Part shown: piece by piece, positions 6,235 to 37,453 of the stretch
How positions within the stretch are numbered: the stretch's first letter is position 1
How the letters are laid out: each line of letters begins with the position of its first letter
NCBI GenBank assembly: GCA_001275005.1
Contig: JWZX01003028.1
Span: forward strand, 1 to 37,453
DNA: 37,453 bases
Direction: 5' to 3'
Source: Chrysochromulina tobinii
Lineage: Eukaryota > Haptophyta > Prymnesiales > Chrysochromulinaceae
Program-made: the position numbers and the translations under genes
Notes under the pieces: model-generated
What the model was told of the DNA's origin: nothing
Databases searched by the model: none
The model's input: only the letters and a program-made list of their open reading frames with translations

Positions 6235-8134
6235 ATGTCAAGCATTGCGAACTCGAAGTGGGCGGAGCACCGCACGCCGGAAGGCAAGGTCTACTACCAC
6301 AACACTGAAACGAACGAGACCTCATGGGAGAAGCCGGACGAGCTCAAGACTGGGCAGGAGCGTGCCGTTGGCGCAGCCCAGACTGCGTGGAAGGAGTTCA
6401 CCGCCGCTTCGGGCAAAAAGTACTTTTACAACGCGGAGACGAAGGTGACGACGTGGGAGATGCCCGAGGAGCTCAAGGCGGCGGTTGCCGCCACCGAGGC
6501 TCTCGCGACCGGCAAGACATTGGCTGCGGCACCTGCCGTCGCGGCAAGGCCGGCTGGGACGGTGGCGCCCTCCGCTGCGCCTGCGGTTGCGCCTGCAGCT
6601 GCGTGTGCGGCTGCGCCCGCGCCTGCGGCCGATGGCGGACCATCGGCTGCCGCAGCTCCGGCCGCGGCGCCGACGCTCTCGGCCACCGAGGAGGCCGCGG
6701 CTGCGGCCGCAGCCGCGGCCGCGAAGAAGACCTTCTTCGCGATGCTCGAGAGCGCAGGCGTGAGCGGGGAGGCGAGCTGGGAGGAGGCGATGAAGCGCAT
6801 CATCAATAAGCCCGAGTACCGCGTGCTGCAGACGCTGGCCGAGCGCAAGGCCGCCTTCTTCGCGTGGCGCGAGCTCAAGCGAGAGGAGCGTGAGGAGGAG
6901 GCGAGGCGCATTCTGCGCCAGCGAAAGGTAGCCTTCCTCGAGATGCTCAAGGGATGTGCCGAGCTGAGCAGCCGCACGCGCTTCCATAAGGTCGTGCAGC
7001 TCTTCGAGCGCGACCCGCGATGGAGCGCACTCGATGGGGACGAGAACGAGCGCGAAGAGCTCTATGAAGAGTACGTTGATTGCCATGGACCTGCCTTGCA
7101 TGCAAGTGCGCGAAGAATGCGTTGATTGCCATGGATGACCTGCCTTGCATGCAAGTGCTCAGCACAATCGCCTTGTCCTTATCAGGTACGCGCTCTCTCT
7201 CGAGCGCAAGGAGGCGCAAGAGCGTCGTGCCGAGCGCAAGGAGCAGATGGGCGCGTTCAAACGGCTGCTCGAGACGGCGCGCGTGGGCGGGCGCAGCCAG
7301 TGGCGCCACGTGGCCGATCAGCTTCGCGACGAGCCCGCGTACCGCGCCCTCGACAAGATCGATCGGCTCGCGCTCTTCGAGGAGCACGTGCGCGCGGCCG
7401 AGCTGGTCGAGGAGCAGCAGAAGCTTCAGGATCGCGAGGCGCGCCGGCGGGACGAGCGGCTCAAGCGCGACGCGTTCCGTGCGCTGCTGCTGCGCGAGCA
7501 CCGCGAGGGGCGCTTGCTGCCCCGGACGCGCTGGAAGGACCTCGTCAACGTCCTCCTGCCGACGCCCGAGTACCGCTTCGCCGCCGAGCAGAGTGGCTCG
7601 ACGCCCGCCGAGCTCTTTGAAGATGTCCTCGAGACCATCTGTGAAGAGTACGAGAGGCACCGAAGGAGCTTGACGCGCATCGGGGGCAACGGCGGCTTCG
7701 AGATCGACGTGAGCACGACGCTCGCGCAGCTCGAAGCGGCGATCGATGTGGCGTACACGCGCGGGGAGAGCGGCGTGCGCCCTCCATCGTGGGCGGTGCG
7801 CACGTACCTCGAGGACCATCTAGAAAGGCTCGCTCTCGAACGTGCCAGTCGCCCAGAACGGCGCGATGAGGGCGAGGGCGAGGGCGAAGGCAGCGGCGAG
7901 GCCCCCAACCGGGAGCGTAAGAAGAAGCACCACCACCACCGCGAGGGCGAGGAGGGCGAGCGCAAGAAGAAGAAGAAGCACAAGTCGAGCCGGCACAGCC
8001 ACCGCAGCCACGGCTCTGAGGACGAGGACGAGGGCGAGGGCAAGGGCGATAGCCCTGCCGAAGGGCGAGAGGCTGCCCCGGCCGCGGCGACGGAGAGGGA
8101 GGAAGGCGAGACCGAGCCGTTGCCGGCCCCGTAA
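6235..8134 (+). CDS. PRP40: PRP40-like pre-mRNA splicing factor (two WW domains plus FF repeats)
   Basis: Exons 6235-7070 and 7186-8134 encode 594 aa. The open frame extends a little upstream of 6235, but this is the first ATG. WW domain 1 spans W9-W31-P34 (SKWAEHRTPEGKVYYHN) and WW domain 2 spans W52-W74-P77. An Ala/Pro linker follows. From about residue 165 there are successive FF-type helical modules (KKTFFAMLE..SWEEAMKRI, KVAFLEML..TRFHKVVQLF, MGAFKRLLE..SQWRHVADQL, RDAFRALLLR..TRWKDLVNVL). A basic/acidic Lys-His-Arg-rich tail ends the protein. PRP40 belongs to the U1 snRNP. Its WW domains contact the branch-point factor SF1/BBP and its FF repeats contact other splicing proteins and the RNA polymerase II tail, bridging the two intron ends in the nucleus. 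The junction restores EEYALSLERKE. The gene is divergent from the glycosyltransferase. Confidence 0.9.
7071..7185 (+). repeat. PRP40 intron with internal duplication and GTACG at both ends
   Basis: The 115-base intron starts GTACGT, and exon 2 begins GTACGC after ATCAG, so GTACG flanks the insert like a short target-site duplication. Inside, a 34-37 base unit starting ttgattgccatgga is present twice (7076-7109 and 7122-7158). The second copy carries an extra TGA that creates GGATGACC. The units hold the same TGATTGCC and GATGACC words seen in other introns here. Confidence 0.7.
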
Positions 8135-8374: not shown

Positions 8375-10010
8375 ATGTCTTCGGTGATCCCATTCATCTG
8401 CTCCGTCGCCGCGCTGCAGACGCCGCCGCTTGTGCCGCCATCGCCGTCCGCCGTGCCCGCCAGCTTCGGACGCCGCGCTGCGCTCGCGTTCGGAGCGGCC
8501 TCGACGGCAGCTATGGCACTGCCGAATGCAGCCCATGCATCTTCCCAAGGGACGGAATGGAAACTGTGGCCCGCGCTGCCGCTCGCGCCCTACGGGAAGC
8601 GGAAAACGGTGATGCGCGAGGCTGTCCCAGGGCGCGCTTGGACCTTTGACCAGCTTCTTGGCGTCTTCTATGTACACGTGCCCATCAGGATGACGGTCAT
8701 ACGGATGGACGCTGGCGGCCTGCTCGTCTACGCGCCAGTCGCGCCGACCAAGGAGTGCCTGGCACTGCTGCAGCCGCTCATCGACGCGCACGGGCCGATT
8801 CGCCACATCATCCTCCCCTCGGTTGCGCCTGAGCACAAGGTCCTCGCCGGCCCCTTTGCTCGTCAATTTCGGAATGCCGAGTTCTGGACAACGGACGCAC
8901 AGTATGCCTTCCCGCTCAACCTACCGGCGACGTGGCTCGGCTTCCCGGGCAAGGTGAAGCAGCTCCCCCCGCGCGGCGACGGCCTCTTCGGCGGCGAGTT
9001 CAAGCTCGCCGTCATCTCGGCCAAGGCCTCGCGCGAGTCCATCTACCAGGACGCTGCCCTCTTCCACGAGCCGTCGCGCACCTTGCTCGTGTGCGATGCG
9101 GTCGTCTCCATCAACGCGGAGCCGCCTGCGATCTTGACGGCAGAGCCCGAATACACGCGCGCACTGCTCTACCACGCGCGCGACGACCCCCTCGAAAAGG
9201 TCGTCGACACGCCCGAGGTGCGGCGGAAGGGATGGCAGCGCATCGCTCTTTTTGGCAACTTCTTCATGCCAGGCTCGCTCCGTATGCTCGACCAGAGCGT
9301 GTGGCTGTCGGCGGCGTCGAAGAGCCCGATGCCGGAGCTCGGATGGGGCGGTGTGCTACCGTTCACGTGCGCGCCACCCGTGATCGACTGCGCTGCCGCG
9401 CGCGCGCGTGCCCGCGTGTGTGTGCCTCTGCGGGTGTGCCTCTGCGGGTGTGCCTCAGCACCACGTCCTCAATTCTCTTGACTTCTGGCATCTCCCTTCC
9501 CTTCGGGTATCCCACCTTCCTTCTAGCATCTCACCTTCCTTCTAGCATCTCATCTTCCCTCGTAGCATCTCACTTCCTTGATAGCATCTCACCCTCCACT
9601 GGATCGCCTGCACGCCGCGCAGTTGGACGGACAAGACCCCTCTCGCCTTCGAACGCTTCACGCAGGGAGGCGCGCCCGTGGTTGTGCCCATCATCCAGAT
9701 CATCCTCTCTCGCGCGCCGGAGGCGTCCGCCGCGTGGGTCGACACCATTTGTAGCTGGCCGGTTGAGACCGTCATTCCGGCGCACTTTGACGCACCGATA
9801 AAGGTGACGCCGAGCTCGCTGCGCAAGGCGTTCGCCTTCATCGATAATCGTGAGAATAAGGTGCGCGCGTGCGACGAGGACGTTGCCTTCTTGCGAGACG
9901 CACTCGATGGGCTGCCCCCCAACCTCGCCCTCTTCGACACGCCGTACGGCCCCTTGAGAGGCGAGCCGTGCGGGCTGGGGGGAGGGGGTCTCGTTGTGAA
10001 ATCCTTGTGA
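8375..10010 (+). CDS. DUF4336 protein with plastid/thylakoid-lumen leader
   Basis: Exons 8375-9366 and 9623-10010 give 459 aa. The junction restores GGVLPFT/WTDKTPLAFERF in frame. The body matches DUF4336 proteins of cyanobacteria and plastids, a family related to the metallo-beta-lactamase fold: YAPVAPTKECLALLQPL, IRHIILPSVAPEHKVLAGPF, FHEPSRTLLVCDAVV and WPVETVIPAHFDAPIK. The last block comes from exon 2. The N-terminus is layered: a hydrophobic start (MSSVIPFICSVAAL), a Pro/Ser-rich region with ASF, then FGRRAALAFGAASTAAMALP ending NAAHA. That is a twin-Arg, Tat-like signal with an AxA cleavage site, expected for import across several plastid membranes into the thylakoid lumen. The biochemical role of DUF4336 is unknown. 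Start ATG 8375 is the first in frame and yields this complete leader. Confidence 0.82.
9367..9622 (+). repeat. DUF4336 intron with 19-20 bp pyrimidine-rich repeats
   Basis: The intron starts GTGCGC and ends CGCAG. Its 5' part holds repeated gtgtgcctctgcggg. Its 3' part (about 9500-9600) holds about five copies of a 19-20 base unit, tagcatctcaccttccttc, each combining a TAG and a pyrimidine tract. Thus several potential 3' splice sites precede the real one. Confidence 0.65.
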
Positions 10011-10308: not shown

Positions 10309-11643
10309 ATGTCAAAGCAGAACACCATGGATGGCGACATATCAATGCAAGCCGAAATGCAGGCGGTGAAGTTTGAGACCAAAATGCTGTTGTCACGGGT
10401 GAGCAAGCTCGAGGAGAAGCTCCAAGTCACTGCCACCTCAGCCTCACTCCATGACTGGGCCCGCGCGGCGACGCCCTCCGAGCTCCGGCAGAGGCGCCAG
10501 GAGCTTTCCAACGCTTATGTCCGGCAGGTCCATGTGGAGCTCGCAGATCAAATGAAGGCGGCTGGCATCGCGGCCGCAGCGAGCATCACGGCCGCGGCGC
10601 CGTCGGACATCGCGGCCACGAGGAGCTCTCCGTGGTGGGCGGAGACGCCCAAGGCGGACTACACACGCCAGCAGGTGCGCGCGGCTGCGATGGGATTGGA
10701 AGCAGGCTCCCTCGGCTCGGTCGCCCGCGGCCTGGCAGCGGGCATTCCTCTGAGGGTGCTGCGCACAGCAGGGGGATTGTCGCGAGGATGCTCGTACAGC
10801 AGGGGCGTCGAGCTGCACACCGCAGCAAAGGTGGCTGGGTCCTCCACTCACGAGGCGAGAGCTGCAGGCCACACTTTGGCAGAGGCCAAGACAGGCGTCG
10901 TCGGCGACTGCGCGACGACGTGCGTGTTCGCGAGACTGGCGGGTTACTCGTGCTTCGAAGCCAGGGCTGCTGGCTACTCATGCGCCGAGGCTAAGGCGGC
11001 TGGCTACACGTGCTCCGAAGTCCAGGCTGCCGGCTACTCATGCGCCGAGGCCAAGGCGGCTGGCTATTTCGCGCCGCGCCTCAGAGCGGCTGGATATTCG
11101 TGCGCCGAGGCCAAAGCGGCCGGGTTTTCGTTCGCCGACGCCAAGGCGGCCGGGTTTTCTTGCGCCGAGGCCAAGGCGGCCGGGTTTGTCGCGGGGCTCA
11201 AGGCCGCGGGGTACACGTTTGACGAGGCTAAGGATGCTGGGTACACGCTTTCGGAGATGAGAGTGGGCAGGTTCTCGTGTGAAGAGGCCAAGGCGGGTGG
11301 ATACTCTTGCGCCGAGGCCAAAGACGCGGGATACAATCCCAGGGAGTGCATGGAGGCCGGCTTCACTGTCTTTGAAGGCCTGGCTGCAGGCTATCCAATG
11401 GCCGACCATCTCAATCGACATGCGCCCGAGTTTTACTGGGACCACGGTATACATCGCCATCGCACCATCAGGGATCCGAACCCCCAAATCCCCCCCCCCC
11501 TCCTTACCCCCTCCTCGCGCCCAGTCCCACGCTGCCCTCTCATCAACTGTCATCAACTCTCACGCCCGCTCGTGTGCATTGAGTATGGATCGCTCGCTCG
11601 AGCGTCACTGCAGGTCGCGTCAATTGGGATGGGACTTGGCTGA
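10309..11643 (+). CDS. Decapeptide (AAGYSCAEAK) repeat protein
   Basis: The frame from ATG 10309 to TGA 11641-11643 encodes 444 aa. Residues 1-100 are predicted helical (coiled-coil-like MLLSRVSKLEEKLQ). From about residue 115, and clearest in 10930-11400, the protein is a run of 10-residue units with consensus AAG(Y/F)(S/T)CAEAK, at least sixteen of them, some decayed (AAGYFAPRLR, DAGYTLSEMR). The invariant AAG plus aromatic suggests a regular solenoid or helical rod. I know of no assigned function. After MADHLNRHAPEFYWDHG (about 11445) the sequence turns Pro/Arg-rich and repeat-free, right at a possible donor (GTATAC at 11448). The true C-terminus may therefore differ through a missed splice. 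The downstream cNMP-domain protein carries one similar unit (FESVKAAGYT). Confidence 0.65.
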   Translation: MSKQNTMDGDISMQAEMQAVKFETKMLLSRVSKLEEKLQVTATSASLHDWARAATPSELRQRRQELSNAYVRQVHVELADQMKAAGIAAAASITAAAPSDIAATRSSPWWAETPKADYTRQQVRAAAMGLEAGSLGSVARGLAAGIPLRVLRTAGGLSRGCSYSRGVELHTAAKVAGSSTHEARAAGHTLAEAKTGVVGDCATTCVFARLAGYSCFEARAAGYSCAEAKAAGYTCSEVQAAGYSCAEAKAAGYFAPRLRAAGYSCAEAKAAGFSFADAKAAGFSCAEAKAAGFVAGLKAAGYTFDEAKDAGYTLSEMRVGRFSCEEAKAGGYSCAEAKDAGYNPRECMEAGFTVFEGLAAGYPMADHLNRHAPEFYWDHGIHRHRTIRDPNPQIPPPLLTPSSRPVPRCPLINCHQLSRPLVCIEYGSLARASLQVASIGMGLG

Positions 11644-20104: not shown

Positions 20105-23100
20105 ATGCTGGCCTCGGCGACGACGCCGCCCGGATTCCCGCTGGTTTGGGAGGGAGTACCGACCGCGAACTACACGATGGTCGGGTACGACGCTGGAATG
20201 CTCAATATCCAGGTGAATGCCTGAGCACTGAAAACACACCTGAGCACTGAGCACTGACGGCCCTGCGTGCCTGCGCACGATCGAACAGTTCTCGAGCGAT
20301 TGCTCCGGCGGGCCGGCATCGCAACGAATGCGGACTGTGTATCCCGACAATTACACGGTGCTCTCGCGTTGCGATCTCGGATGGAACTACATCATCGACC
20401 CGAGCTCACGCGGCGGTGGCTGCGTGGTCTGGCCGCTCAAGAGCGACACGTGCAGCTCCTGCGCGTGCCCATTTTGCCTCCGTGACACAGGCGGCGTGTG
20501 GGGTTCTACTGGGTCGGGAAATGTGACGTGGCTTGACATGCATCCCGCCATCAGCCCCGTCACCGGGGCTCCTGTCACCGTGTGGCGCGCCTTGCAGGCC
20601 AACGGCAACATTGTCGAGCACGCGGTCTCGGCGGCGGGGCTGCCAGTCACGCAAAGCGTCTCGTCGCCAAGCTATCTTACTGTCGCCACCCACTTCGACA
20701 GCTTCACACTCTCGGTTCCACTCGGCACCTTCGATGTCCCCGCGATCTGCGCAAACGCAACGCGTCGACTGCACGCCGCCAACGCTAGCCACGATGCAGC
20801 TAGGAGCCGCGCCGCACTGCGAGTGGGCCCGGCTGCGGACGTCAGCGTTGCGGCAGACCAGGCGCGTCCTCCACCGCCGCTCGGCGTACGCTTCCGTGCG
20901 TCGGTGACGACCAACATTGCACAGCCCGGCTACGAAGGGGGAAATGTTCTCACTGTCGTGCATGCCGACTGCTCGCGAGGGCCACGCAAGCAGCGTATGC
21001 ACACCACCTACGGCAACTTCCACACTGTGAGTCTGCATGCACACCACCTATGCACACCACTTGCATGCACACCACCCATGGCAACTTCCGCACTGCGAGT
21101 CTCTCGCTCGCACCTCCTCGCGGCGACCTAAGCGCCCTTCTCCTGCCACGCATCGCGCGTCCGTCGACCCTTTTCGACAGCACTCCTAGAGCGCGCCTTG
21201 TTACGGAGGTGTGTGCGTGCCTTCTCGGCAGTTGCTTGTCGACTGCGCGGCGGGCCTTGTGCGCGAATACGACGAGGGCGGCATTAACTGCGAAACGACG
21301 ACCATTGGGCTGCGCGACACGGTCGACGCCCGCATCTGCGCGACGTGCGGCATGCCATTTGGAATCCGCGACACAAACGGCGTGTACCGCGTCGGCGAGA
21401 GCATGCAGCAGACGGTCACGTGGTCTAACGCCACCGCAGACGCGGCCGACGGCGCGACCACGTACTATGGCCGCGTGGATGCCGGCTCGCTCGAGATAGC
21501 ATTCACTTTCGCCGCTGGCGGCACGCCGCTGCAGCAGGCTATCCTTCAGCACGGCTGGCAACGCCTCCTCGTCAACTTCTCTAACTATTCGGCCGACGAT
21601 TTTGACGACGTAAGCCCGCGCCCGCCGTCCGCACACCGCCCGCCGCCGCGCCGCCGCCGCTCTCCTCTGTACAGCCCGCGTAATGCGCCCAGTCACCCTA
21701 GCACGTCGCCGACACGCGTGGCTGACACGCGTGGCTCTCGCTTCCCCTCTCTCTGATGCTCAGTCGATCTTTGAGCCGCCGCGATGCTTCGAGCCGCTCT
21801 CGTCGCGCCTCGCCGTCTTTTGGGCCGGCTGGACGACGGTCGGTTGGGTGCTGCTCACGGGCATGGCCGCGGTTGTCGGCGCCCATATCGTCGACCAGTT
21901 CGCTCGCCGCATGCCAGCGCCACGCGCCATCCCGGCAGCTACGAGCGCGAGCGCCCGGGATGGCGCGAGCACGAGCGCGTCCTCGTGGGCGCACGTGGCC
22001 ACGAGCATCGTCGGCACGGCGGTGCGTGCGGCTGCGCCGCTCGCCATCGTCATCAGCAGTTACTTGCTCGCAGCCACATACGAATCGCCACAAATTGTAC
22101 AGTCCAGTGCGCTCCCGTACTCATTTGCTGCACCGGCGCTCGCCGGTGGTGGCTATTGCTACCCGCCCGCACACTGTGACGCGTACGATGGAGTATACAA
22201 GCCGCCGTGGTGGCGCAATCCGACCACCGTTATCGGCACCACCGCCGATGTGCGCGTGCTCTCGGCGTACTACGCGTACCTCGCGTTGCTTGCCATAATT
22301 GGACCGCTCATGCGCCTCTCGGCCGCGCTCGACTCGTCGTGCAGTACGCCGCTGCGCGTGCGGCTGCCGACGATCGGCCGCGCGCACTACGTCGACACGA
22401 GCTGTGGTGAGATGCTCACAGTGCTCTTCCTATGTTCGCTGCTGCTCTATGCCTTCTACGACGCGCTCGACATTCAGACCCTCGCCCTTCTCGACACACC
22501 CGCTGCGCTGCAACGGCTTGGAGCTGCGTGCGGCTCGCTGCTCAACCTGTTGGTCGGGCTGGTGCTTCTGCCCGTAGGCCGCGCGCTCGTCGTTGTCGGT
22601 GTGCCGCATGAACGTGCCGTGAGCTATCATCGCACCATCGGCACATCCATCATCGCCGTCGGCGCGCTCCACGTCGCTGTCGAGCACGCGCACTGGCTAA
22701 TCAAGCGCACATGGCTCGCGTTCACATTCAACTATGTGCACACTCACACGGGGCAGGACGTGTGGCCGTGGGCCGTGCCCATGATGAACCTTCTCTTCGT
22801 CGCCCTCCTTGTTGCCAGCCTCGCCGCCCTCTCGCCAATCCGCCGCCGCTACTACAATGTCTTCCTCGCGATGCACGTCGTGGTGATGCCGTGCTTTCTT
22901 CTCGGTGCGTCACTGCACACGCCAGCTACTGCACACGCCCACGGCTGTGTACACGACTCACACGCTACGGCCATGTATACACACGTCACTGCACACGCCC
23001 ACGACTCACACGCTCGCGACTGGCACGCTCCACCCCCTTCTCTTCCACAGGCACGTTGGTACACTCGTGGAGCGCCTGGAAGTTCGCCCTTGCCGGCATC

Positions 23101-24446: not shown

Positions 24447-27400
24447 ATGCCGGCAGCGAGCGCGGCCATGCACACGCTCACGAGTCTGCAGGCCGACATC
24501 GACTCGTTGCACAGCAAGTGCAATGAGCTGCGCCAAAGCCTCGGCCACCCGACGACGCTCGAGTCAGAGGCGAGGGCACTCGTGAAAGACGGAGGCTCTC
24601 GGCCGGGCACGGAGCAGGCGCTGCTGCAGCTGCGCGAAAGCAAAGCGTCGGAGCTGCAGATGCTGTCCCTTCGCTGCTGCGGGCGCTCGACGCGGGACTG
24701 CCATGGCGCCGTCACCGGGCCGTCCGGCTCGCGCTTCAACTTGAAGCTCCTGCTCGCCGTCGCCGACTGCATGTCCACACAGGGTAAGGAGCTCGCCGAG
24801 CAGACGAAGCGCCACGAGGCGCTGCAGCGAGAGAACCGCGCACTGCGCGACCTCACTGGTCAGCGCAGCGCCGCAGAGGGCGGATCCTCCCAGCCCCTTG
24901 GTGGACCCGACGCGTTTCCGGCCTCGCCAGTGCCCTCTGCGGCTGCTCCCGTCCGTCCGTCCTCAGCGATGGCTGCTGTCCGTCGTCAGCCTCCGCCCGT
25001 ACCGAGCGACGGGCGGCCGTCACCGCACGAGGCGTTCGCCGAGCTGTTCGGCAGCAGCAGCAGCAGCGTCAGCGCCAGCGCCAGCGTCAGCGGCAACGTC
25101 AGCGGCAGCGGCAGTGGCAGCAGCGGCAGCGGCAGCAGCCAACCGTCAGGAATCTCAAGACAACCGCCGCCGCAGCCTTACGCACCTCCGGCGCTCGCGC
25201 TGCAGCGTCCGCCTCCGCCGAGCACGGCGGCGATGCGCCAGCCCGACGCGCCTTCGCACCGCGCGCCGCCCGCCCTGCGCCGCGACGCGAGTGGACTGAG
25301 CCTCACCGCCGCCGCCGCCGCCACGGCCGCCGCCGCCAACGCGTCCGACGCGGCGGCGGCCGCCGCCTTAACGGCCGAGGCGAGCGCTCGAGCGAGCGCC
25401 AACGGCTCCCGCGAGCTCCGGCTGCTCAGCTTGCAGCGGCGGCTCGACGAGTCCCTCGCCGAGAATGCGATGTGGAAGCGCCAATTTGCCAAGCGGCTCG
25501 AGGAGATGCTCGCCCAATACGGCGCGGGCGGCGCGGCGGCGCAAGTGCCCACGGCGGCGCTAGCCCAGGCAGCCCCCTCTGCCAAGGCGCCCAATACGGC
25601 GCCTCCTCCCGTCAAGCCGCCTCCGGCAGCCGCGCCCGGGCCAGCTCCGCCCAATACGGCGCCCGCGCCCAAGGCGCACCTACAGCCGTCCAAGGGTGCT
25701 CAGGATGGCGCTCCGGATGGCGCTGCGGCGGCGGTGGCGTCGGCGACGGCGGCGGATGCCCTCGCTGCGTCGGAGGCGGAGGCGGAGCGATTGCGTACGG
25801 AGCTGCAGGCGGCGCTAGTGCGCGCGCGCGCGGCGGAGACGGGGCGCGATGCGGAGAAGCAGCGCACCGCCAGGCTCGATGCGGAGCTCAAGGAGGCGCA
25901 TGCATCGCTCGAAAAGGCAAAGGCGAGCGCCGACGCGAGCGCCAAGCAGAGGAGCGCGGGAGAGGCGGACGCGGCCAAGGCGGCCGCAAGCAAGGCACAG
26001 GGAGCGGCGGCGCAGGCGGCGGCGCAGGCGGAGAGCCGCGCGCAGCAGCTCGAGCAGCGCGCGGAGAAGGTGGCGAGCCAGTTGGCGGCCCTGCACGCTG
26101 AGCACGCCGCGGTCGCTGCTAAGGCCAAGGCAGAGATGAGCGCCGACCTGTGCGCCACCCGTGAGTCGCTCGCGACGGTGGAGCGTGAGCTGAGCGAGGC
26201 GCGGCGCGCGGCGGAGCGCGCAGAGGCGCGTGCGAGCAAGGCCGAGAAGGAGGCGGAGAGGGTGGTGGCCGAGGCGCGCCGCGCGCGCGACGGAGCGCTC
26301 GCAAATGCCCAGGCGCAGGCGAGTGATGACCTCTGATGACCTCCGATGGCCTCTGATTGCTTCCCCCTTCAGGCGAGTGCCCAAGCACACGCGAGCGCCG
26401 AGGGCGATGCCTGCGCGCGAAGCTGATGGCCTCTGATGACCTCTGATGGCCTCTGATGACCTCTGATGACCTCTGATGACCTCTGATGACCTCTGATGAC
26501 CTCTGATGACCTCTGATGACCACTGATGACCTCTGATGACCTCTGATGACCTCTGATGACCACTGATGACCTCTGATGACCTCTGATGACCTCTGATGAC
26601 CTCTGATGACCTCTGATGACCTCTGATGACCTCTGATGGCCTCGCTCATCAGGCGAGTGCCGAGGGCGACGGCCTGCGCGCGAAGCTGCGCGAGGCCGAG
26701 GCGAGGCTCGAGGGCGCGCGAAAGCGGCACGCAGAGGAGGTGGCGGGGCTAGAGGCGACGGCCACGCACGAGCTGTCTCTCGAGAAGCAAGCGGCCAATC
26801 GCACCGTCACCCAATTGCAGACGCAATTGAGCCAGATGACGGCGCGAGCCGAGCGAGCTGAAGCGCAGCTGAGCAGCTCGGAACGTCAGCTGGCGGACGC
26901 GGCGGCCGAAGCGACGCGTCAACGTATGGCGGCGCACGAGGCGAATGTGCGTGCGCAGCAGGTGGAGCGCGCCGCCTCGGGCATGCAGCAGGCGGCCGAG
27001 AGCGCGATGAAACGTGCGGACGCGTGCGAGGCTGAGGCGCGCGAGATCGCATCTCGTCGCATCTCGTGGAAGGACGAGCGCGCGGCGCTCACAACGGAGC
27101 TGCATGCCGAGCGAGCGATACTCGACAAGGAGCGTCTGCACCTTCGCTCTCTCGAGGCATCCCTTGCGCACGAGCGTCAGGTGCGCCGCTCGATGGAGAC
27201 GCTGCTCGAGACGCGCCTCGGGGAGCTCTCGAGTGAGACACAGCCTGAGGACCTCGCCAAGGGCGCCGAGGCGCTGCAGCTGCTGCTCGGGACGGCGGCC
27301 ATCGCCCAGGCAGCCCTCGAGCAGCGGGAGGCACTCCTCGCTGACATCTTCATGCTCTTCGACACACGCCACGCGGATCGGATCGTCGCTCTCGAAGGCA

Positions 27401-28014
27401 CCGCAACCCATCGGCACAGGTGCGACGCCGCGCATGCCAAGCTCGACAGCACGCTCGCGCGCCTCGATGCGCTCGAGATGGCGCGCCTCGATGCGCTCGA
27501 GACGGCGCCCCCAACGGCCGCCGCTCTGGGGCCGCCGCCCACCGCCGCGTCCTCTGGCGCGTCGTCCAGGCCGGGCACAGCCGCCACCGCCGCCGAACAC
27601 GCGTCCGCGGCCGGCTCGTCGCCCGACACGGCGTTGCTCCGGAGCAGTTCGGGTCTGCTGGTACTCCGTCAAGAGCTGCGCGAGGTTGCTGGGCTGCTCC
27701 TTGCGGCGAGCAAAGCCGGCAGCGCGGCCTCCGACGTGGTGGCGGCGCAGGAGGCGGCCGTGCAGGCGGCGATCCACAAGTTCGCGGCGCGAGTCGACCA
27801 GTACCAGAGCGAGCTCAAGCACTCGAAGGAGCGAATCGCGGAGCTCGAGCGAGCCCTCGCGAAGGCTGGAGCCAAGGCGCCCCCCGCCCCCGTGCACCGC
27901 CCACCGCCCACTGGGTCCAGCGCGGCGCCCAAGAGTCGGCAGCAGCCCATTGCGGGCGGCGGCAGGAGCCCAAGAGGACCGCCGTCGCCGGATTGGCTGC
28001 CCAAAAATCGATGA
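24447..28014 (+). CDS. Long Ala-rich coiled-coil protein
   Basis: Exons 24447-26318 and 26653-28014 give 1077 aa (a small extra exon may lie at 26373-26414). The start is ATG 24447, the first in frame. Residues 1-140 form a helical domain (LTSLQADIDSLHSKCNELRQ, KLLLAVADCMSTQGKELAEQ). A low-complexity Ser/Gly/Pro/Ala region follows. From about residue 330 there is an extended coiled coil rich in Ala, Glu, Arg and Gln (LSLQRRLDESLAENAMWKRQ and the segment around the intron, then RAERAEAQLSSSERQLADAA). A compact region near LGELSSETQPEDLAKGAEAL could be globular, and the C-terminus is Pro/Gly-rich. No motor, kinase or known catalytic motif is visible. Such proteins commonly serve in centrosomes, cilia or cytoskeletal scaffolds, but nothing here decides this. 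The intron is a GC-AG decamer array. Confidence 0.75.
26319..26652 (+). repeat. Decamer-array GC-AG intron (NNCTGATGAC x 26) with a decoy exon
   Basis: The donor is GCGAGTG and exon 2 also begins GCGAGTG after CTCATCAG. Decamer units in exact 10-base register occupy 26321-26360 (four units) and 26421-26640 (22 units). The latter are almost all ctctgatgac, with cactgatgac at 26521 and 26561 and ctctgatggc at 26441 and 26631. Between the two arrays, 26373-26422 is a degenerate copy of the start of exon 2 (gcgagtgcc...gagggcga.gcctgcgcgc), preceded by its own TTCAG acceptor. If spliced with a GC donor at 26415 it would add 14 in-frame codons. Confidence 0.88.
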
Positions 28015-28225
28015 GACGCGCAACCATGGTGCCGTGTGAATTTTGTACATAGATTGCACGTCGCCGCGCCACGCCGTATATCCCGGCGTGAAATGCGAGT
28101 TCCCCCGTGGCCGCGATTTGAAATTAATATTGAACATCCTAAATGCGTTGCTCTCCGCAGGCCTGCTACGTGCTACCAACCTGCTTCCGACGCCTTCCTG
28201 ACAAGAGTGCTAAAAGCGTCGCGTC

Positions 28226-31341
<3,116 letters not shown>

Positions 31342-32734
31342 TCAGTGTGAGCTCCCAATGTCCTCATTGTTGACCTCCTCTCCGATGGACTTGACCAGAA
31401 GGGCGCTGAGGAAGCCTAGGAGACACACAAAGCCGACGATGTTGCCGCCAATCTCGAAGGCTTCCGGGAGCACCGTGGACGCGATCATGGTGAGCATCGC
31501 TCCTCCGCACACGCCCTCGATGATCGCGATCAGGTAGGAGGCTCCCAAAGTCCTCTGCTCACCGGGCCCGAGGGGGGGGAAGCAGATGGCGCCGAGCCCC
31601 GCCCCGAGACCTGTGCCGACAAAGATGGCGGACCACATGCCCATGATGACGATCGACCTCATGCTGTACGACTTCATGATCGCCGCGGAGGACATGGCTT
31701 CAGGCAGGTTGGCGAGGAAGACGCCGACGGTGAAGGTGATCAGCGAGGAGATGTTTCCCGAGTTCGCGAGGATGCCAAGTACGAAGGATTCTGGGATGGC
31801 GTCAAGCCCAATGCCTAGCCAAATCATGATCGCGGCGTTCTGCAGGGGAACGGTTAAGGTTAGGGAGAGGAATGAAGAGTTCAGAGGAGAATGCCTATCC
31901 AGATCCAGCCGATGACACTATAGGGGGCAATCAGCGGGCAATCAGCAGGCACTCATCGGGCATGCAAAGGGAGGGCAATCACCCTATCCAAATCCAGCCG
32001 ACAACATCGGAGGGAGGGCAATCAGCAGAGGCTCCATGAGAGGCAGTGGCATTTGAGCTGTGCGGTAGCAGAGTTGCGCGGCGTATCACCTTGCCGCCTT
32101 GATGGCCTTGATGGCTAGCCGCCTTCGCCGCCTCCTCGGCGCGCTTTTCAACAGCCTCGCGTCGATTCTCCTCTAGCATTTTCGTTATTTTCGATGACGA
32201 GACAACATGCGTTATCCCAGCGCGGAATTTTGCACGTGCAGCCGCGGCTGCTTCCTCCTTGCGGATGCGCTCTGCCTCCGCTTCGTCATACGTTTCAACT
32301 GCATTTGGGTCAGGCTTCTCTCCGGACTCCATGTCGGGCTGAACCTTGCCGAGGACCTTCGCGACTTTGAGCGTCGATCGCTTACGGAAGAAGGCTCCTT
32401 GATCATTCAGCACCTTGTCGAGGAAGCTGAAAAACGCCCCGCCACATACGGCCGCCGCAATCGCAGCGAGCGTGCAGCCGAGGCCTGTGTCTGACTGATG
32501 CTGCAAGATGGCGCCGAACAACTCGATGCTTAGCGCCTGGATGAGCGCTCCACCACCGAAGGCCATCATTGCAGCATTCACCTTCGGGCTGGGCGCTGCC
32601 GTGACGCCAATCGCAGCACCAATAACAAGCGAGAGCGCTGAGAGAAGCCCCCAGCCGGCAGCGTTGAGAAAGTTTAAGCCCCCGTCCACGGGCTCGCGCA
32701 CGATGGTCGTATTCAACAACAAGGAACCTCCCAT
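31342..32734 (-). CDS. ZIP-like divalent metal transporter
   Basis: Exons 32734-32090 and 31839-31342 (minus strand) give 380 aa. The start is ATG 32734; the frame extends upstream without ATG. N-terminal helices are GWGLLSALSLVIGAAIGV, AAMMAFGGGALIQALSIELF and LGCTLAAIAAAVCGGAFFSF. A cytosolic charged linker follows (EAEAERIRKEEAAAAARAKF). Exon 2 holds the ZIP-like core IWLGIGLDAIPESFVLGILA (TM4) and GVFLANLPEAMSSAAIMK (TM5), then three more helices. The paired PE motifs match a ZIP subgroup in which the TM4 His is replaced by Asp (LDAIPES). It should move Zn(II), Fe(II) or Mn(II) into the cytosol from outside or from an organelle. The tail ends EEVNNEDIGSSH. It is divergent from the acetyltransferase gene. 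Confidence 0.72.
31840..32089 (-). repeat. ZIP-gene intron with two decoy copies of the exon-2 start
   Basis: The donor is GTGATA and the acceptor CCCCTGCAG. The sense strand holds GGCTGGATTTGGATAGGGTG (near 31983-32002) and GGCTGGATCTGGATAGGCAT (near 31892-31911), both resembling the exon 2 start ATGATTTGGCTAGGCATTGG. Between and around them are CTGATTGCCC and GATGAGTGCC units (31925-32030). Confidence 0.65.
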
Positions 32735-33017
32735 TCGCCCCTGGTGGTGGTGGTGGTGGACGCTCGGCAAGTGTCGAGGGTTGGCGTCGCTCCCGTTCCC
32801 GAAGACTTGCGAAACGCAACAGATAGGAATCCTATAATCCAAAGCTTCCAAATAAGTTATTCATATGGACGCACCTCCAGGCAACAAAATAAAACGGACA
32901 TGCTGTCGTCATCCCGCGTCGCGGACGCGACGCGCCTCTCGATGACGCGGACGCGACGCTTGATGACGTCGCAATTTGGGTTCTGAAACTGTGTCTGAAA
33001 AGAGGACTCCGAACGTG
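32735..33017. promoter_or_regulatory. Divergent promoter region with repeated GATGACG motifs
   Basis: This 283-base region lies between the ZIP-like and acetyltransferase start codons. It contains cgatgacgcggacgcgacgc and then ttgatgacgtcgc near 32938-32972. TGACGTCG is close to the bZIP/CRE consensus TGACGTCA. It probably serves both genes, on layout grounds. A (tgg)n run (cca on the other strand) lies near 32740-32760. Confidence 0.4.
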
Positions 33018-34160
33018 ATGCCGAGCGCCGCCACGGCCGCGCACGTCGTGGCGGTGACGGCGTTGGCTTTGACGCTCACATGGCTCTTCTTCGCTCGCCG
33101 TAAGCGTCGCCACGTTGTCTCGCTTCCCATCACGTTGGCGGACAAGAATGGTGGAGCTATCACGGTACGCGTGGCGCGAGTCTCAGATCGGGAGGAGGTG
33201 GTCTCTTCGATTGCCGATCTCACGGGCACGGGCAGCGGCACGGGCAATGACGACTACCTCCTCCAGGAGTTCAACCGAATGGTCGAGGACGAGGATGTGC
33301 TGCTCCTTTTCGCCGAAGACGTTGAGACGGGCAAGGGCCTGGGCATGATGGCGATCGTGTGGTCGAGCCCAGTTGAAACATACTGGCAGAGCTTGCGCGT
33401 GTCGCAGGCGGCGCGCGGGCGAGGCATCGCCTCGCGCCTCTTCGATGTGGCTGCCCACATTGCGCTGCAGCGTCAGGGCCCGGCGAGCATCGGACGCTGG
33501 GGCGTCGTCTCCTCGAACGAGGTGATGACACGCTGGAGCGAGCGCCTCGGGCTGCATGGGCCGCAGCGCTTTCGGCGGTACGGCGCCCCCGCGTCCTCGG
33601 AGCCGCCCCCGCTGCCTCCGGGCTACGTGCTGCGCGAGGCGACTCAGGAGGACGTGCGCGCGATCATGGCGTTCCTCAAGAGCGCCCCCGTGTGGAATTC
33701 CGAATTTGGCTCCCAAAACTTTGTGCTCGCGGGCTGGGGGGAGTTTAGCGAGGAGATGCTCGGCAAGCTGGTGACGGGTGCGACCTCGCGCGGCCTCCCC
33801 GTGCCCAGCCCGCGTCTGCTCCTGAGCGCGAGCGGCGCCCTCGTCGCCTTCATGTGCATCTCATTCTTCCAGATGGGTGACCAACGGTTCTGCATGTTCC
33901 GGTACGCGGACGGCGCGTACGACGAGCTGCGCGTGCTGCTGCACTGCCTGCCGAGCATCGCGCACGGGCTCAAGTGCGTTGGGTGCGGTGGGTACGTGCC
34001 CACCCTGCCGCCCATCATCGCGTTAATGGACGCTTCTGAAAAGTACAAGCGCGCGACGGCGACCGAGCAGCACGAGTTCAAATGGAAGAACGCCGAGTTT
34101 GTGGCGCGCATTGACCTGGGCGAGGCGGCTCTCGCGCCCGCCACGACGCCCGCCAAGTGA
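33018..34160 (+). CDS. Membrane-anchored GNAT acetyltransferase (NAT16-like)
   Basis: An intronless frame of 380 aa from ATG 33018. Residues 5-24 (ATAAHVVAVTALALTLTWLF) form an N-terminal signal anchor followed by a basic stop (ARRKRRH). The GNAT core has VRVARVSDREEVVSSIADLT, DDYLLQEFNRMVEDEDVLLL, then the acetyl-CoA loop VSQAARGRGIASRLF at about residues 126-140 and a Trp/Ser-rich strand (GRWGVVSSNEVMTRWSERLG). A second, more divergent half (GYVLREATQEDVRAIMAFLK onward) resembles the two-part layout of NAT16/histidine N-acetyltransferase-like proteins. The substrate is probably a small amine or amino acid, but this is inferred from family likeness. Start choice: the frame runs back to 32976 without ATG, and this start gives a sensible anchor. 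Confidence 0.75.
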   Translation: MPSAATAAHVVAVTALALTLTWLFFARRKRRHVVSLPITLADKNGGAITVRVARVSDREEVVSSIADLTGTGSGTGNDDYLLQEFNRMVEDEDVLLLFAEDVETGKGLGMMAIVWSSPVETYWQSLRVSQAARGRGIASRLFDVAAHIALQRQGPASIGRWGVVSSNEVMTRWSERLGLHGPQRFRRYGAPASSEPPPLPPGYVLREATQEDVRAIMAFLKSAPVWNSEFGSQNFVLAGWGEFSEEMLGKLVTGATSRGLPVPSPRLLLSASGALVAFMCISFFQMGDQRFCMFRYADGAYDELRVLLHCLPSIAHGLKCVGCGGYVPTLPPIIALMDASEKYKRATATEQHEFKWKNAEFVARIDLGEAALAPATTPAK

Positions 34161-35160
34161 GGCCGTAGTGAGGCCGAGCATTGGTGCACTCCTGTGGCGG
34201 CCCCTGGGGTACTTGGAGGGGGATGTGAGGGTTCGTGAGGGTCGTGGGCTGCACCCAGCTCACTGGCCACTGATGATGTGAGCGCTCAAGATCGAGATCG
34301 AGAGCGAGAGCGAGATTGGTGCGAATTCCGAGATCGAGATCGAGAGCGAGATTGGTGCGAATTCCGAACACGTAGACTCTCGGAGCGGCGAAGGGAGCGA
34401 GGCGGATGCACGGAAAGAGGAGGGCAGGGGAAACGAGGCCGTCGGTGGAGCCGTAGGTCGGACCTAAGGTGAAAGGTCGGAGATCGAGAATCAAGCGTAA
34501 TGTCGAGGGCGTGGCACGCACGCGGGATTAGCAGATAGCAGTCCGGCGCTGCGCGCGCGCATGCGTGCGTCGACAGAGTGCGCACAAGCGTGGCCCAGGT
34601 GGATGTCGAGTGCACTCTGCACACGACCGGACGTGCCTGGGGCTCCACGGGCAGGACTTCTCTAGTTTGAGCACACGCACATCGCCGCACGGCACGCGGC
34701 GTTCAGCACGCGAACGATGGATCAGCCGTGGAGCGCGGCGAGTCGCACCCAGGAACTTATTGTGCGAGAGCGGCCGGAGCCGCGCGGGCCCGCAACCGGG
34801 GGCGCGGCGGGCGGCGAGCGGCACCCCCACCCACGGGACGGCCCGGTTGTGTCAGGTGGAGGTGCGTGGTTCTTGCGTGTGGAGACGTCGAGAAGTTTAC
34901 TACTTTCCTGTCTCTTTGCCGTGCCTCTCTCTCTCGTCTGTTCTCTCTACTGTGCGCCTGAAGCAAGAGCCGGTGCTGAACGTGCAACTGGATCGTTCGG
35001 TTTCAGTGGAGTTATGCAATCGCTCGGCGCTGGTCGGCGACTGGGATCGCATAGAGCGAGGCACATTTGTACGAGGCGCAGCTCATCGGCGGCACGCGCA
35101 TCATCCTCATATTGAAGACGACCTGTGCGTGTGACACGACGCGGTGGGCTCCGTCCTGTC
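34161..35160. other. Intergenic region between two convergent genes
   Basis: One kilobase lies between the 3' ends of the acetyltransferase (+) and the gamma-tubulin complex gene (-). Several short frames exist on both strands, but none shows family features. Repeat-derived Arg-Ser frames are artefacts of the gatcgaga repeats. It contains a pyrimidine-rich tract (about 34900-34960). Confidence 0.45.
34289..34366. repeat. Two tandem units of a gatcgaga/gcgaattccg repeat
   Basis: Units of 42 bases (34289-34330) and 36 bases (34331-34366) each start agatcgagatcgagagcgag and end ttggtgcgaattccg. The first holds one extra gcgaga hexamer. Confidence 0.8.
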
Positions 35161-37453
35161 TCACGCCGGTGCTGCGGGCTCGTGCAGCGGCTCGCTCCTC
35201 GGCTCTGCTGCCTCGGAGGCATGCTCATAGTAACTGTTGAAGTCGAGCCGGTAGAGGAGGAATGCGAGGTCGTACGACGAGTGGCGCTTGACTGCGCTCA
35301 CGAGCGCGAGGATACGCCGGCGGTACTCGGCGGCGGCAAGCTGCAGCTGCTCCTCGAAGCTGGCCTCGACGACGAGCTCGCCCATCTGAGCTGGCGTCAC
35401 CGCGCCACGTACCGCAAAGGTGCCTCGCGCGGCGGAGACGGCGATGGCGGCGGCGTGCTCGCGCGCGGCGGCCTTCTGCTCCAGGAGCGACATGTAGAGC
35501 TGGTCCTGCACGCGCGCGAACGCGAGGATCGCGTCGAAGAGCGAGACGAGCGCGCGATGCATCGGCTCGTCCTCGGCGCCGAGCATGGCCTTCTGTGTGA
35601 GGCTTGCGAGGAACTGGCCGTGCGCGGCGAGCAAACTGTCGAGGTCGGTGGCGGCGTGCAGCCGCTCATGGAGCACGAGGCTCTCGCACTCGATCACCTG
35701 ATGAGGGACGCAATCAGCATGCACTCAGAGATGCAATCAGTCGGAGCACGAGGCTCTCACACTCGATCACCTGATGAGGGAGGCAATCAGATGCAATCAG
35801 ATGCAATCAGAGACACTCAGAGGCAATCAGTGGCAATCAGAGGCCATCTCGATCACCTCGAACATGAGGTAGTACTGCAGGTTGTAGATGAGGTGCACCA
35901 TCTCGTTGCGCAGCACGTAGCAACCGTGTATCGTCGGGTCGCGGTGCAGCGTCGAAAGCAGGCGCGAGGCGGTGCAGTGCTTGCGCCAGACGGCAGTGAG
36001 CGAGTGCTCGACCCTCTTCAGCTGCCAGAGGAATGTGAAGAGTCGCCGGTACGACGCGAGCGCACTCGTGCTGAAGATCGTGTCGCACGGCGCTCCGACC
36101 CGATAATCGAGCGCAAAGGCATCCCAGCCGGTCGCCTTGGGTCCCTTGTTGAGCGACACATCGAGGTGGCGTAGCAGCAGGGTCGGCTCTGCCTCGGTCG
36201 GCGACGAGTGCGACGCGCGCACCGCCGCCTCGACGAGCGAGACCAAATGATGACGATGCAGCTGCTGGGCTGGTTTGGAGAGCGACGGCGCGAGGTGCTC
36301 CATCAACGTCTGTGCAAAGTCGCCCTTTCCGAGCAGCAAGAACTGCTGCAGGTTGGTCACGTGGGCACGGAGCTCATACCGGCCCCATAGCAGCTCAAGC
36401 AACCTCGCGTTCGCGAGCGCGGCGGCGCGACTGACTACGGCCGACAGTGCCGCCTCGCGCCCGTACTCCATGCACGCGAGGGCCGCGGCCGACGCCGCGC
36501 CCGCCTCGGCCGCCTCCGTCTCCGCCATCAGCGAGGATTCCGAAACCGCCCCTGCCGCGACGGCGCCCGCAACGGCGCTTCCCGCCGTCAGCGGCCGCTC
36601 GCCGTGGTTGGCGGTGCTTGCGCTGGTAGCGCTGGTGGCGGTGGGCAAGGGCGCACCTCTCGGCGTCTCGACGCTGAGCGCCGTCCCGAGCGCCGCCCAG
36701 CCGAGCGCCGTCCCGGGCGTCTCCCCGCCTCTCGCCGCCGCCGCCGCCGCCGCCGCCTTGGTCGGCGCCTTTGGTGGTACCGGCAACGGCGCCGAAAGGC
36801 GTAGCGACCAGTCGGCATCGCCGCAACACAGACGGATGAAGTTGATCGCCTTGCCCACGAGCAGCACCTTGGTCGCGAGAGCGCGCGGCAAGAAGCTTGG
36901 CACCATCGACTCGCGTATGGCGTACCTGATGAGCGGCGCCATCAGGTAGGACATCAGTGGCCATCAATGGCAATCAGGGCGACATGGCGTACCTGATGAG
37001 GTGAACCATCAGGGAAGTACTCCGAGGGGCATGCAGAGAGGCGATCAGAGAGGCGATCAGAGAGGCGATCAGAGAGGCGATCAAGGCATACCGCTGCTCC
37101 CACAGCGCGGTGAGCGGCGTGGCGCGGCTTTCGATGAAGAACTCCTCGTGCGCGTCGCGCAGCTCGCCCTGCAGCACCCACATGCGGATCATGCCAAACA
37201 GCGGCGCAGCGGCTGCGCGCAGCAGGTGGCGCACATAGCCTCGCACGAGAGGGTCGCCGTGGCGCTCGTGCCGCGCGATCGCGACGATCATGGCGCCGCC
37301 CTTGAGAGGCGCACAGGTGCGAGCGAGCTGCGCCATGAGCAGGAGCCGTTGCATCGGCTGCGCGCTCCAGACGCTCAGCTGGAGGAGCGTGAGCTCGGAC
37401 TGCCGCTGCTCCTCGAGGACCGCGAGCAGCTGATACCACTCATCGAGCTCGAT
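35161..37453 (-). CDS. GCP3: Gamma-tubulin complex component, GCP3-like (5' end beyond window)
   Basis: Exons on the minus strand: 37453-37092 (open at the right edge), 36925-35857 and 35697-35161; 655 residues visible. The spliced protein matches the Spc97/Spc98 family: IVAIARHERHGDPLVRGYVR, PLFGMIRMWVLQGELRDAHE followed by EFFIESR, then W..RYAIRESMVPSFLP, VLLVGKAINFIRLCC, NLQQFLLLGKGDFAQTLMEH, LDYRVGAPCDTIFSTSALAS, YRRLFTFLWQLKRVEHSL, YNLQYYLMFEVIECESLVLH, ATDLDSLLAAHGQFL and LLYRLDFNSYY at the C-terminus. ATDLDSLLAAH favours GCP3 over GCP2. GCPs bind gamma-tubulin and form the ring that nucleates microtubules at centrosomes and basal bodies. An Ala/Thr/Ser-rich insertion of about 110 residues (nt 36450-36780) interrupts the domain after the GKAINFIR block, where some GCPs have variable loops. 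Both introns are TGAT-array introns. Confidence 0.9.
35698..35856 (-). repeat. GCP3 intron with a 39-bp duplicated acceptor/exon start
   Basis: Positions 35670-35708 (the real acceptor and exon 3 start) and 35743-35781 (inside the intron) are identical except for one base, 73 bases apart. The donor GTGATCGAG also equals the exon start GTGATCGAG. TGATTGC(A/C) and TGAGTG units fill the rest (35783-35845). Using the upstream decoy acceptor would lead to a stop 19 codons later. Confidence 0.85.
36926..37091 (-). repeat. GCP3 intron with 12-bp array and a duplicated acceptor
   Basis: Donor GTATGCC resembles the exon start GTACGCC. Four gaggcgatcaga units (37035-37085; sense TCTGATCGCCTC) follow. 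CTCATCAGGTACGCCAT occurs twice on the sense strand, near 37000-36984 (decoy) and at 36933-36917 (real). Between the two lie CCTGATTGCC, TTGATGGCC and CTGATGTCC words. Confidence 0.8.

Follow-up and report, generated by a model that had tools for sequence, protein, structure and literature searches.

Tandem TGAT introns of Chrysochromulina tobinii: probable introner-like introns with long exon duplicates

How do introns built from one family of short tandem words come to lie in unrelated genes of a single genome? Where new introns come from has long been an open question, and among the known sources that act on a large scale introners are a main one. The question is raised here by a stretch of 37,453 nucleotides from the haptophyte Chrysochromulina tobinii (contig JWZX01003028.1, positions 1 to 37,453; hereafter the window), in which introns of an aquaporin gene, a gene for gamma-tubulin complex component 3 (GCP3) and several other genes carry arrays of TGAT-bearing units. 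We consider it probable, at roughly 0.75, that these TGAT introns are introner-like, born by an insertion that duplicated a piece of exon and followed by growth of the array in place.

Word counts given below are genome-wide (53.15 Mb, 2253 contigs). All other results come from the window and sampled stretches, which together make up well below 1% of the genome. The samples are a set of 3-kb loci and 20 stretches of ten kb each (L032-L051), of which two belong to the array-rich contig C33 and eighteen were taken from every 100th contig (C100-C1800). For the coiled-coil, ZIP-like, GT47 and PRP40 genes the names serve as labels taken over from a first-pass annotation of this DNA; GCP3 and the aquaporin were checked here.

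Related arrays and their orientation

Tandem arrays were located with Tandem Repeats Finder (TRF), and matches to a unit pattern were grouped into clusters. A single 10-bp unit such as TGATGACCTC yields two matches, so that four matches may represent two or three real units; clusters are therefore defined by pattern matches and not by units. The first-pass annotation had described related TGAT arrays in unrelated genes, with periods of 10, 11, 12 or 53 bp. TRF finds arrays at the places it named, with all four periods among those in the window (table 1), and the array words hugely exceed their reversed forms. There are 3229 genomic copies of CTGATTGCCTC against 1 of the reversed word, 1845 against 1 for CTGATGACCTCTGATGACC, 2889 against 35 for CCCTCATCAG, 1827 against 2 for CCCTCATCAGGT and 257 against 0 for CCTCATCAGGTACG, an excess of 80- to more than 1000-fold. 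As the copies of CCCTCATCAGGT and CCCTCATCAG imply, GT directly follows 63% of CCCTCATCAG ends. A reversed-sequence control gave 1 cluster in the window and L032-L051 together. Similar introns thus recur at many non-homologous sites of one genome, and the window's host genes are unrelated (GCP3 and MIP by Pfam). The 3' end, TCATCAG, is common to the sites, and the 5' part is a host duplicate, different at each site. Of the annotation's reading, a homologous and locally amplifying class, sense-oriented and with the common CTCATCAG end, is supported.

To score strand, we used a codon model whose training set was the exons of the window and the sampled loci; it was correct in 196 of 220 test windows, these overlapping its training exons. 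Scored against the flanking coding frame, 61 of the 69 clusters with at least four matches were sense, 2 antisense, 3 low and 3 unscorable. The 26 three-match clusters (13 sense, 11 antisense, 2 low) are mostly noise. In the every-100th-contig stretches, 29 clusters were found in 10 of the 18, with 22 sense, 2 antisense, 2 low and 3 unscorable. The same question can be asked free of gene models: among 100 listed of the 2889 places with CCCTCATCAG, neighbouring ends 150-1500 bp apart lay on the same strand in 29/29 cases, compared with 6/8 at 1.5-5 kb and 4/8 at 5-20 kb. These counts agree with the annotation's claim that the TGAT strand is the coding strand, and the strand bias on which that claim hung is present both overall (61 vs 2) and in the every-100th-contig stretches (22 vs 2). 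Three to four TGAT units at 31146-31183 (+) lie between two minus-strand genes and are sense of neither, a weak counterexample to a sense-only orientation.

Duplicated exon sequence at the intron ends

The main feature, which the first-pass annotation lacked and which bears on intron origin, is a copy of host exon, mostly 14-43 bp, that stands at one intron end and again in the exon. We searched for the best ungapped match between left and right flanks, with units masked, at 97 clusters of at least three matches, from which clusters close to locus ends and repeats of one flank had been removed; the expectation came from flanks of different loci matched to each other (8/2612 at score >=15). A host duplicate was found at 27/97 clusters at score >=15 (0.3 expected) and at 40/97 at score >=11 (3.3 expected). 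Among TCATCAG ends, 27/68 were preceded, 45-160 bp upstream, by a second copy of the exon that follows them (score >=11; 0.06 expected).

The cleanest control was a comparison of splice sites. Direct repeats accompanied 16/34 CTCATCAG/GT sites and 5/9 CCCACAG/GT sites, compared with 18/1065 other AG/GT sites (Fisher p = 1.9e-17 for the former). Sites with units on either strand were removed from this background, as arrays read backwards contain AGGT; before removal it stood at 159/1681 sites at score >=11. Searching in the reverse direction, we collected 119 direct-repeat pairs of at least 17 bp lying 50-400 bp apart; 47 of them enclose at least two matches on one strand, against 8.5% of random stretches. 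Of these 47, in-register GT..AG was possible on the array strand in 26 and on the other strand in 9.

A typical young copy (L026) reads exon ..G / GTGCGGACATCTCGTTCCTCTC (host copy) - TGAT words - CCCCCGTCATCAG / GTGCGGACATCTCGTTCCTCTC (exon). In the 27 rows of TCATCAG ends, the host copy starts with GT in 18, GG in 6 and GC in 3; the two preceding bases are AG in 15, and in 11 of these 15 that AG ends a preceding element. A mirror form, in which the element begins at GT and the host copy ends in AG, occurs at L026 1712, L032 8188, L033 7565 and L039.

The lengths of duplicate and insert are related. For this we hand-collected 27 pairs from the flank-match and element-end searches. Excluded were nested copies, periods >100 and, at L037 and L044, plus-strand rows of low complexity; from some duplicates a shared element end was trimmed. 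The duplicate measures 9-43 bp (median 22) and the insert 39-79 bp (median 53), the two lengths are negatively correlated, and their sum is 67-94 bp (median 78, standard deviation 7.2). Re-pairing gave a mean standard deviation of 13.5, and 0/20000 re-pairings were as narrow as observed, although misplaced boundaries can mimic part of this relation, since it is the period that is measured directly. The sum of about 78 bp could arise in two ways. A minimum spliceable length may screen newborn introns, the duplicate compensating for a short element, which is the option we favour; or the insertion itself may copy a fixed length.

A second family, GCATGCAAGTGCTCACCACGGCGCC..CCCCACAG/GT, has the same architecture and is non-tandem. 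Its 15-mer AGTGCTCACCACGGC has 654 genomic copies against 0 reversed, and the sampled loci hold 13 copies with at most 2 mismatches. Sites include L001, L023, L030, L032, L033, L037, L041, L044, L049 and, in the window, 7071-7185, where TGATTGCC and TGATGACC words are joined to the second family (TTGCATGCAAGTGCTCA..). Its host duplicates reach 43 bp, and 7/30 CCCACAG ends carry one (score >=11; 0.0 expected). Copies in L001, L049 and the window's PRP40-like intron start with TGATGACCTGCCTTGCATGC, and the TGAT array may therefore be an amplified part of such an element.

Other fillers were seen as well. The GT47 gene has an apparent intron at 3637-3738 (-) in which a 41-bp direct repeat surrounds about three copies of another 10-bp word, GGGAGATTGG, apparently the same architecture with a third filler. 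Apparent introns at 9482-9597 and 21033-21080 of the window contain unrelated tandem repeats (19-bp CTTCTAGCATCTCACCTTC and 15-bp CTGCATGCACACCAC), and introns of this genome may in general be prone to tandem growth. Many near-identical repeats, with periods such as 30, 69 and 96-99 bp, also occur in coding-like stretches at 10948-11340 of the window and in L044 (350-1700 and 7550-8270), L038 (7150-8200) and L040 (7880-9000). Viral contigs gave 0 matches to 22-base and 29-base TGAT patterns. A second-family copy lies in the last 60 bases of IMG/VR contig 3300027760 (L053 4495-4545), beside phage-like reading frames; this contig end is probably chimeric.

Splicing, array growth and branch sites

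GT and AG lie in register in the two copies of 20/27 pairs, against 16.5% for mismatched pairs. When the empty site was joined, it was open and coding-like in 16/27, whereas the unspliced stretch was open in 2/27. Protein read-through of the arrays can be rejected: periods of 10 and 11 give TGA in all frames, and the unspliced stretch is so rarely open.

Conserved proteins run across the junctions when aligned to relatives of solved structure. The GCP3 product, which also has a Pfam match, aligns to 6tf9 (gamma-tubulin complex component 3) through both of its junctions, with no gap at either. In the aquaporin, likewise with a Pfam match, the duplicated 32 bp encode the second NPA box and splicing leaves one copy; the alignment to 2evu passes through, covering, of the three TGAT junctions, only that at the NPA box. 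At L038, where two successive inserts are removed, the resulting midasin C-terminus can be aligned to 6or5 and 6qt8; slight differences in length occur a few residues past the junction. Since the duplicated flank is exon, and reading it once restores a conserved protein, the site was exon before the insert. As judged from splice sites and reading frames, the inserts are removable as spliceosomal introns, and we infer that they would be removed in the cell.

Once in place, the arrays grow. Among 77 TRF arrays the period was 10 in 38, 11 in 14, 12 in 5, 7 in 3 and another value in 17, with copy numbers up to 33.8; it was a multiple of three in 10/77, five of these being period 12 and none period 9. 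Identical 9-mers made up 44% of unit pairs within arrays (mean over arrays) and 3.5% between arrays (44 arrays, 388 units). Units are thus alike within arrays and not between them, which argues for growth in place. In the 34-copy array of L033 the host copies are still 20/22 identical despite the number of units, and growth therefore seems fast relative to point mutation.

Growth in place would also be expected if old introns had been colonised by a minisatellite or a miniature inverted-repeat transposable element that then expanded inside them, and 57/97 clusters without a host duplicate even at score >=11 fit that account. An inert satellite should, however, be randomly oriented, against the 61 to 2 observed, and colonisation of an existing intron does not account for a duplicated exon flank that restores a conserved protein when read once. 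Although most clusters have no duplicate, the array is linked to the exon flank by the host duplications and the sense bias, unlike a plain minisatellite. We regard colonisation as very improbable.

The first-pass annotation had further proposed that each unit may be a branch point. The branch-site consensus is yUnAy. CTGAT, CTGAC and CTAAT fit it, and the genome's U2 small nuclear RNA carries the branch-pairing word GTAGTA. In CTGATTGCCTCCCTCATCAG the last CTGAT has its A 16 nt upstream of the intron end. Within arrays no position varies less than the presumed branch A, with 14/388 mismatches (3.6%) against 18-36 (4.6-9.3%) elsewhere, a count that leans that way because the unit is defined by TGA. 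The words are compatible with the proposal; the A is only modestly more constant than its neighbours. Use of one unit as branch point is likely, and use of many is possible. The added suggestion that units multiply about once per helical turn found nothing in its favour beyond the common periods of 10 and 11. RNA folding of 18 introns against dinucleotide shuffles gave a mean z of -0.58, with no excess structure; by eye, CTGATGA of the units and TCATCAG of the end are complementary over 7 bp at most.

Branch-site requirements could by themselves have produced similar introns by convergence, if CTGAT-type branch sites and pyrimidine tracts are needed and extra copies are favoured as redundant branch points. 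The fit to yUnAy and to GTAGTA, the common end CTGATTGCCTCCCTCATCAG as a plausible branch site, tract and AG, and the constancy of the A all agree with such selection. The shared letters nevertheless extend far beyond the branch site (TGCC, TCATCAG), the constancy is slight and its count biased by the unit definition, and the second family uses other words. Convergence is compatible with an introner-like origin; as an explanation in its own right we think it improbable.

Boundaries in the window were placed by hand at GT/GC..AG points that keep the frame and match the first-pass annotation for 28808-28885, 29498-29648, 30043-30294, 35698-35856 and 36926-37091, and by eye for 26319-26652 (table 1). 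An automatic intron caller based on the codon model gave a model for 59/69 clusters with noisy boundaries, and duplicate-based boundaries were relied on instead. The caller agrees for 30043-30294, 31840-32089 and 35698-35856, picks other points for 26319-26652, 28808-28885, 29498-29648 and 36926-37091, and gives another 3' end for 3231-3359. A host duplicate was looked for in the flanks of the 30043-30294 intron and none was detected. The genome has 58 light-harvesting-protein matches, the mark of a photosynthetic eukaryote. One light-harvesting gene is closest to 9jj8 (Light harvesting protein), 8z11 (iFCPI-7) and 9uh3 (FCPI-7), at 260-310 bits, the next scoring 179; these three chains are from haptophytes, which would place the source among the haptophytes.

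Table 1. TGAT introns, host duplicates and TRF arrays in the window. A slash within letters marks the intron end.
Feature	Position	Strand	Details
TGAT intron, coiled-coil gene	26319-26652	+	334 bp; GC..AG; array 26423-26643; ends GCTCATCAG
17-bp host direct repeat	26409-26425 (intron copy); 26672-26688 (exon copy)	+	from direct-repeat search
TGAT intron, aquaporin gene	28808-28885	-	78 bp; ends CCTAATCAG; automatic caller: other donor
32-bp host duplicate, 5' intron end	28855-28886	-	31/32 identical to 28777-28808
Exon copy of 32-bp aquaporin duplicate	28777-28808	-	contains NPA box
TGAT intron, aquaporin gene	29498-29648	-	151 bp; period 11; ends TCCTCATCAG; automatic caller: other donor
17-bp host duplicate of 29498-29648 intron	29632-29648 / 29481-29497	-	16/17 identical
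TGAT intron, aquaporin gene	30043-30294	-	252 bp; 53-bp period of several TGAT words; ends CCCTCATCAG
Intron with degenerate TGAT units, ZIP-like gene	31840-32089	-	250 bp; GT..AG; ends CCCCTGCAG
TGAT intron, GCP3 gene	35698-35856	-	159 bp; two CTCATCAG ends in succession; GTGATCGAG at both intron ends
28-bp host duplicate within GCP3 intron	35743-35770	-	exon copy 35670-35697
TGAT intron, GCP3 gene	36926-37091	-	166 bp; partly period 12; GTAYGCC at both ends; automatic caller splits intron
17-bp direct repeat (element end + host), GCP3 gene	36984-37000; other copy 36917-36933	-	identical
TGAT-unit intron, GT47 gene	3231-3359	-	GC donor; 3' boundary uncertain
Intron, PRP40-like gene	7071-7185	+	boundaries by eye; ends TTATCAG/GTACG
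TRF array	26423-26643		period 10; 22.1 copies
TRF array	29509-29614		period 11
TRF array	30052-30273		period 53
TRF array	35780-35848		period 10
TRF array	37034-37083		period 12
TRF array	31925-31962		period 11
TRF array	3264-3311		period 11

Origin of the introns and known intron-generating elements

In the origin we propose, a short element (39-79 bp in young copies) with TGAT words, a pyrimidine stretch and a 3' TCATCAG would insert into exons, and a segment of the exon, mostly of 14-43 bp, would be duplicated in the process. Most often the 5' GT would be the start of the first host copy and the 3' AG would belong to the element, so that in-register splicing takes out the element together with one host copy and does not alter the protein; in the second form it is the GT that would come from the element, and the AG from the second host copy. 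The branch site would be a TGAT word 16 nt upstream of the AG, and the insert would move as an element. After birth the unit, mostly 10-12 bp, would expand and be homogenised in place, up to about 34 copies. More tentatively, and short of thinking it probable, we suggest that this is an undescribed mobile-intron mechanism. A short element with a branch-site/pyrimidine/AG module would be inserted, the exon duplication being long and variable and duplicate and insert together measuring about 78 bp. The stop-bearing unit would then multiply in mostly non-triplet steps, which would close all frames and may expose unspliced transcripts to decay.

Several observations weigh against an introner-like origin. 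Coding-like flanks occur at 24/29 clusters in the every-100th-contig stretches; since 1555/1800 random places in the same stretches are coding-like as well, a preference for genes over intergenic DNA would hardly show in the flanks. Clusters without a host duplicate are the majority (70/97 at score >=15, 57/97 at >=11), which we ascribe to decay. Several of the 27 TCATCAG rows are low-complexity or nested copies of one locus, and the identity of at least 90% between copies in the 27 pairs at score >=15 is in part a product of the scoring. Direct repeats are found, too, at 18/1065 other AG/GT sites; one of these 18 is the GT47 duplicate, and at least ten fall in stretches of L038, L040, L043 and L044 that bear repeats. 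No in-register GT/GC..AG was found in 6/27 pairs, and the joined empty site was not open in 11/27, some of them perhaps due to neighbouring elements in the 60-bp flanks. The automatic caller's boundaries frequently conflict with the duplicate-based ones in the clusters that it modelled. Splicing and mobility of the inserts are deduced from the DNA, and the duplications are variable, longer than the target-site duplications published for introners (3-9 bp) and fit no particular transposase.

The main rival is repair of staggered double-strand breaks, as proposed for Daphnia, or segmental tandem duplication. Under it, the exon copy would be break fill-in and the TGAT stretch filler from existing introns; only fillers that happen to splice would survive, and there would be no mobile element as such. 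Such repair would explain duplications of variable length (9-43 bp), the tandem duplications nested within a single locus, for example at L046 and L037, and the other filler, GGGAGATTGG, with its 41-bp duplicate in the GT47 gene. It is also the published reading of direct repeats of 4-12 bp in Daphnia (PMC4202315). Yet the filler here is not assorted DNA: it consists of one or two related sequences, present in thousands of copies that share a 3' end. The repeats are also longer than those in Daphnia. We therefore hold break repair to be unlikely.

The introner-like reading can be set beside known systems. Introners are intron-generating elements that have been surveyed in 3,325 genomes (Gozashti et al. 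2022, PMC9860276). Like the TGAT introns, they are many similar introns at unrelated sites with a host duplication and unchanged coding sequence, and the element and the duplicate each provide one splice site, as in the survey's Symbiodinium and Chrysochromulina examples. Their duplications are 3-9 bp in earlier families and 4 bp in the Chrysochromulina example (PMC9860276), whereas those of the TGAT class are mostly 14-43 bp and variable, and its body is a tandem array. The survey filtered families rich in short repetitive motifs as possible microsatellite expansion (PMC9860276), and the TGAT class would thus probably have been discarded by it.

The introner elements of Amoebophrya (PMC7789003) likewise show similar introns that have spread, with direct repeats at exon/intron boundaries. 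They differ in having repeats of 3-5 nt, inverted repeats of 8-20 nt and non-canonical splice sites, whereas TGAT introns have GT/GC..AG, long repeats, at most the 7-bp CTGATGA/TCATCAG match and no unusual folding. The staggered-break introns of Daphnia have exon-derived repeats of 4-12 bp and inserts of mostly unknown source (PMC4202315), compared with a median of 22 bp and one related family, with words in thousands of copies, here. Tandem genomic duplication with AGGT (PMC3443670) also duplicates an exon segment and splices in register, but the TGAT class has 39-79 bp of other sequence between the copies (27 pairs). Finally, direct repeats of 4-30 bp at the borders of 213 introns were read as insertion marks (Rogers and Bendich 2025, PMC11782384), as we read ours; they average 11.4 bp with 71-100% similarity, whereas the TGAT duplicates are longer, at least 90% identical (which the scoring favours) and tied to one insert. 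The first-pass annotation knew of no description of such a class. Within the open-licence literature, as far as the portions considered extend, we too found none of this combination of tandem-array introns with long exon duplicates; introners, which the annotation did not mention, are however a kindred known class.

Insertion-born introns appear to be numerous in this genome (1827 exact CCCTCATCAGGT ends), and their birth marks, long exon duplicates, can still be read. If this is true, counts of intron gain in repeat-bearing genomes would be too low, and a rule of minimum intron length at birth could be tested directly through the way in which duplicate and insert lengths are related.

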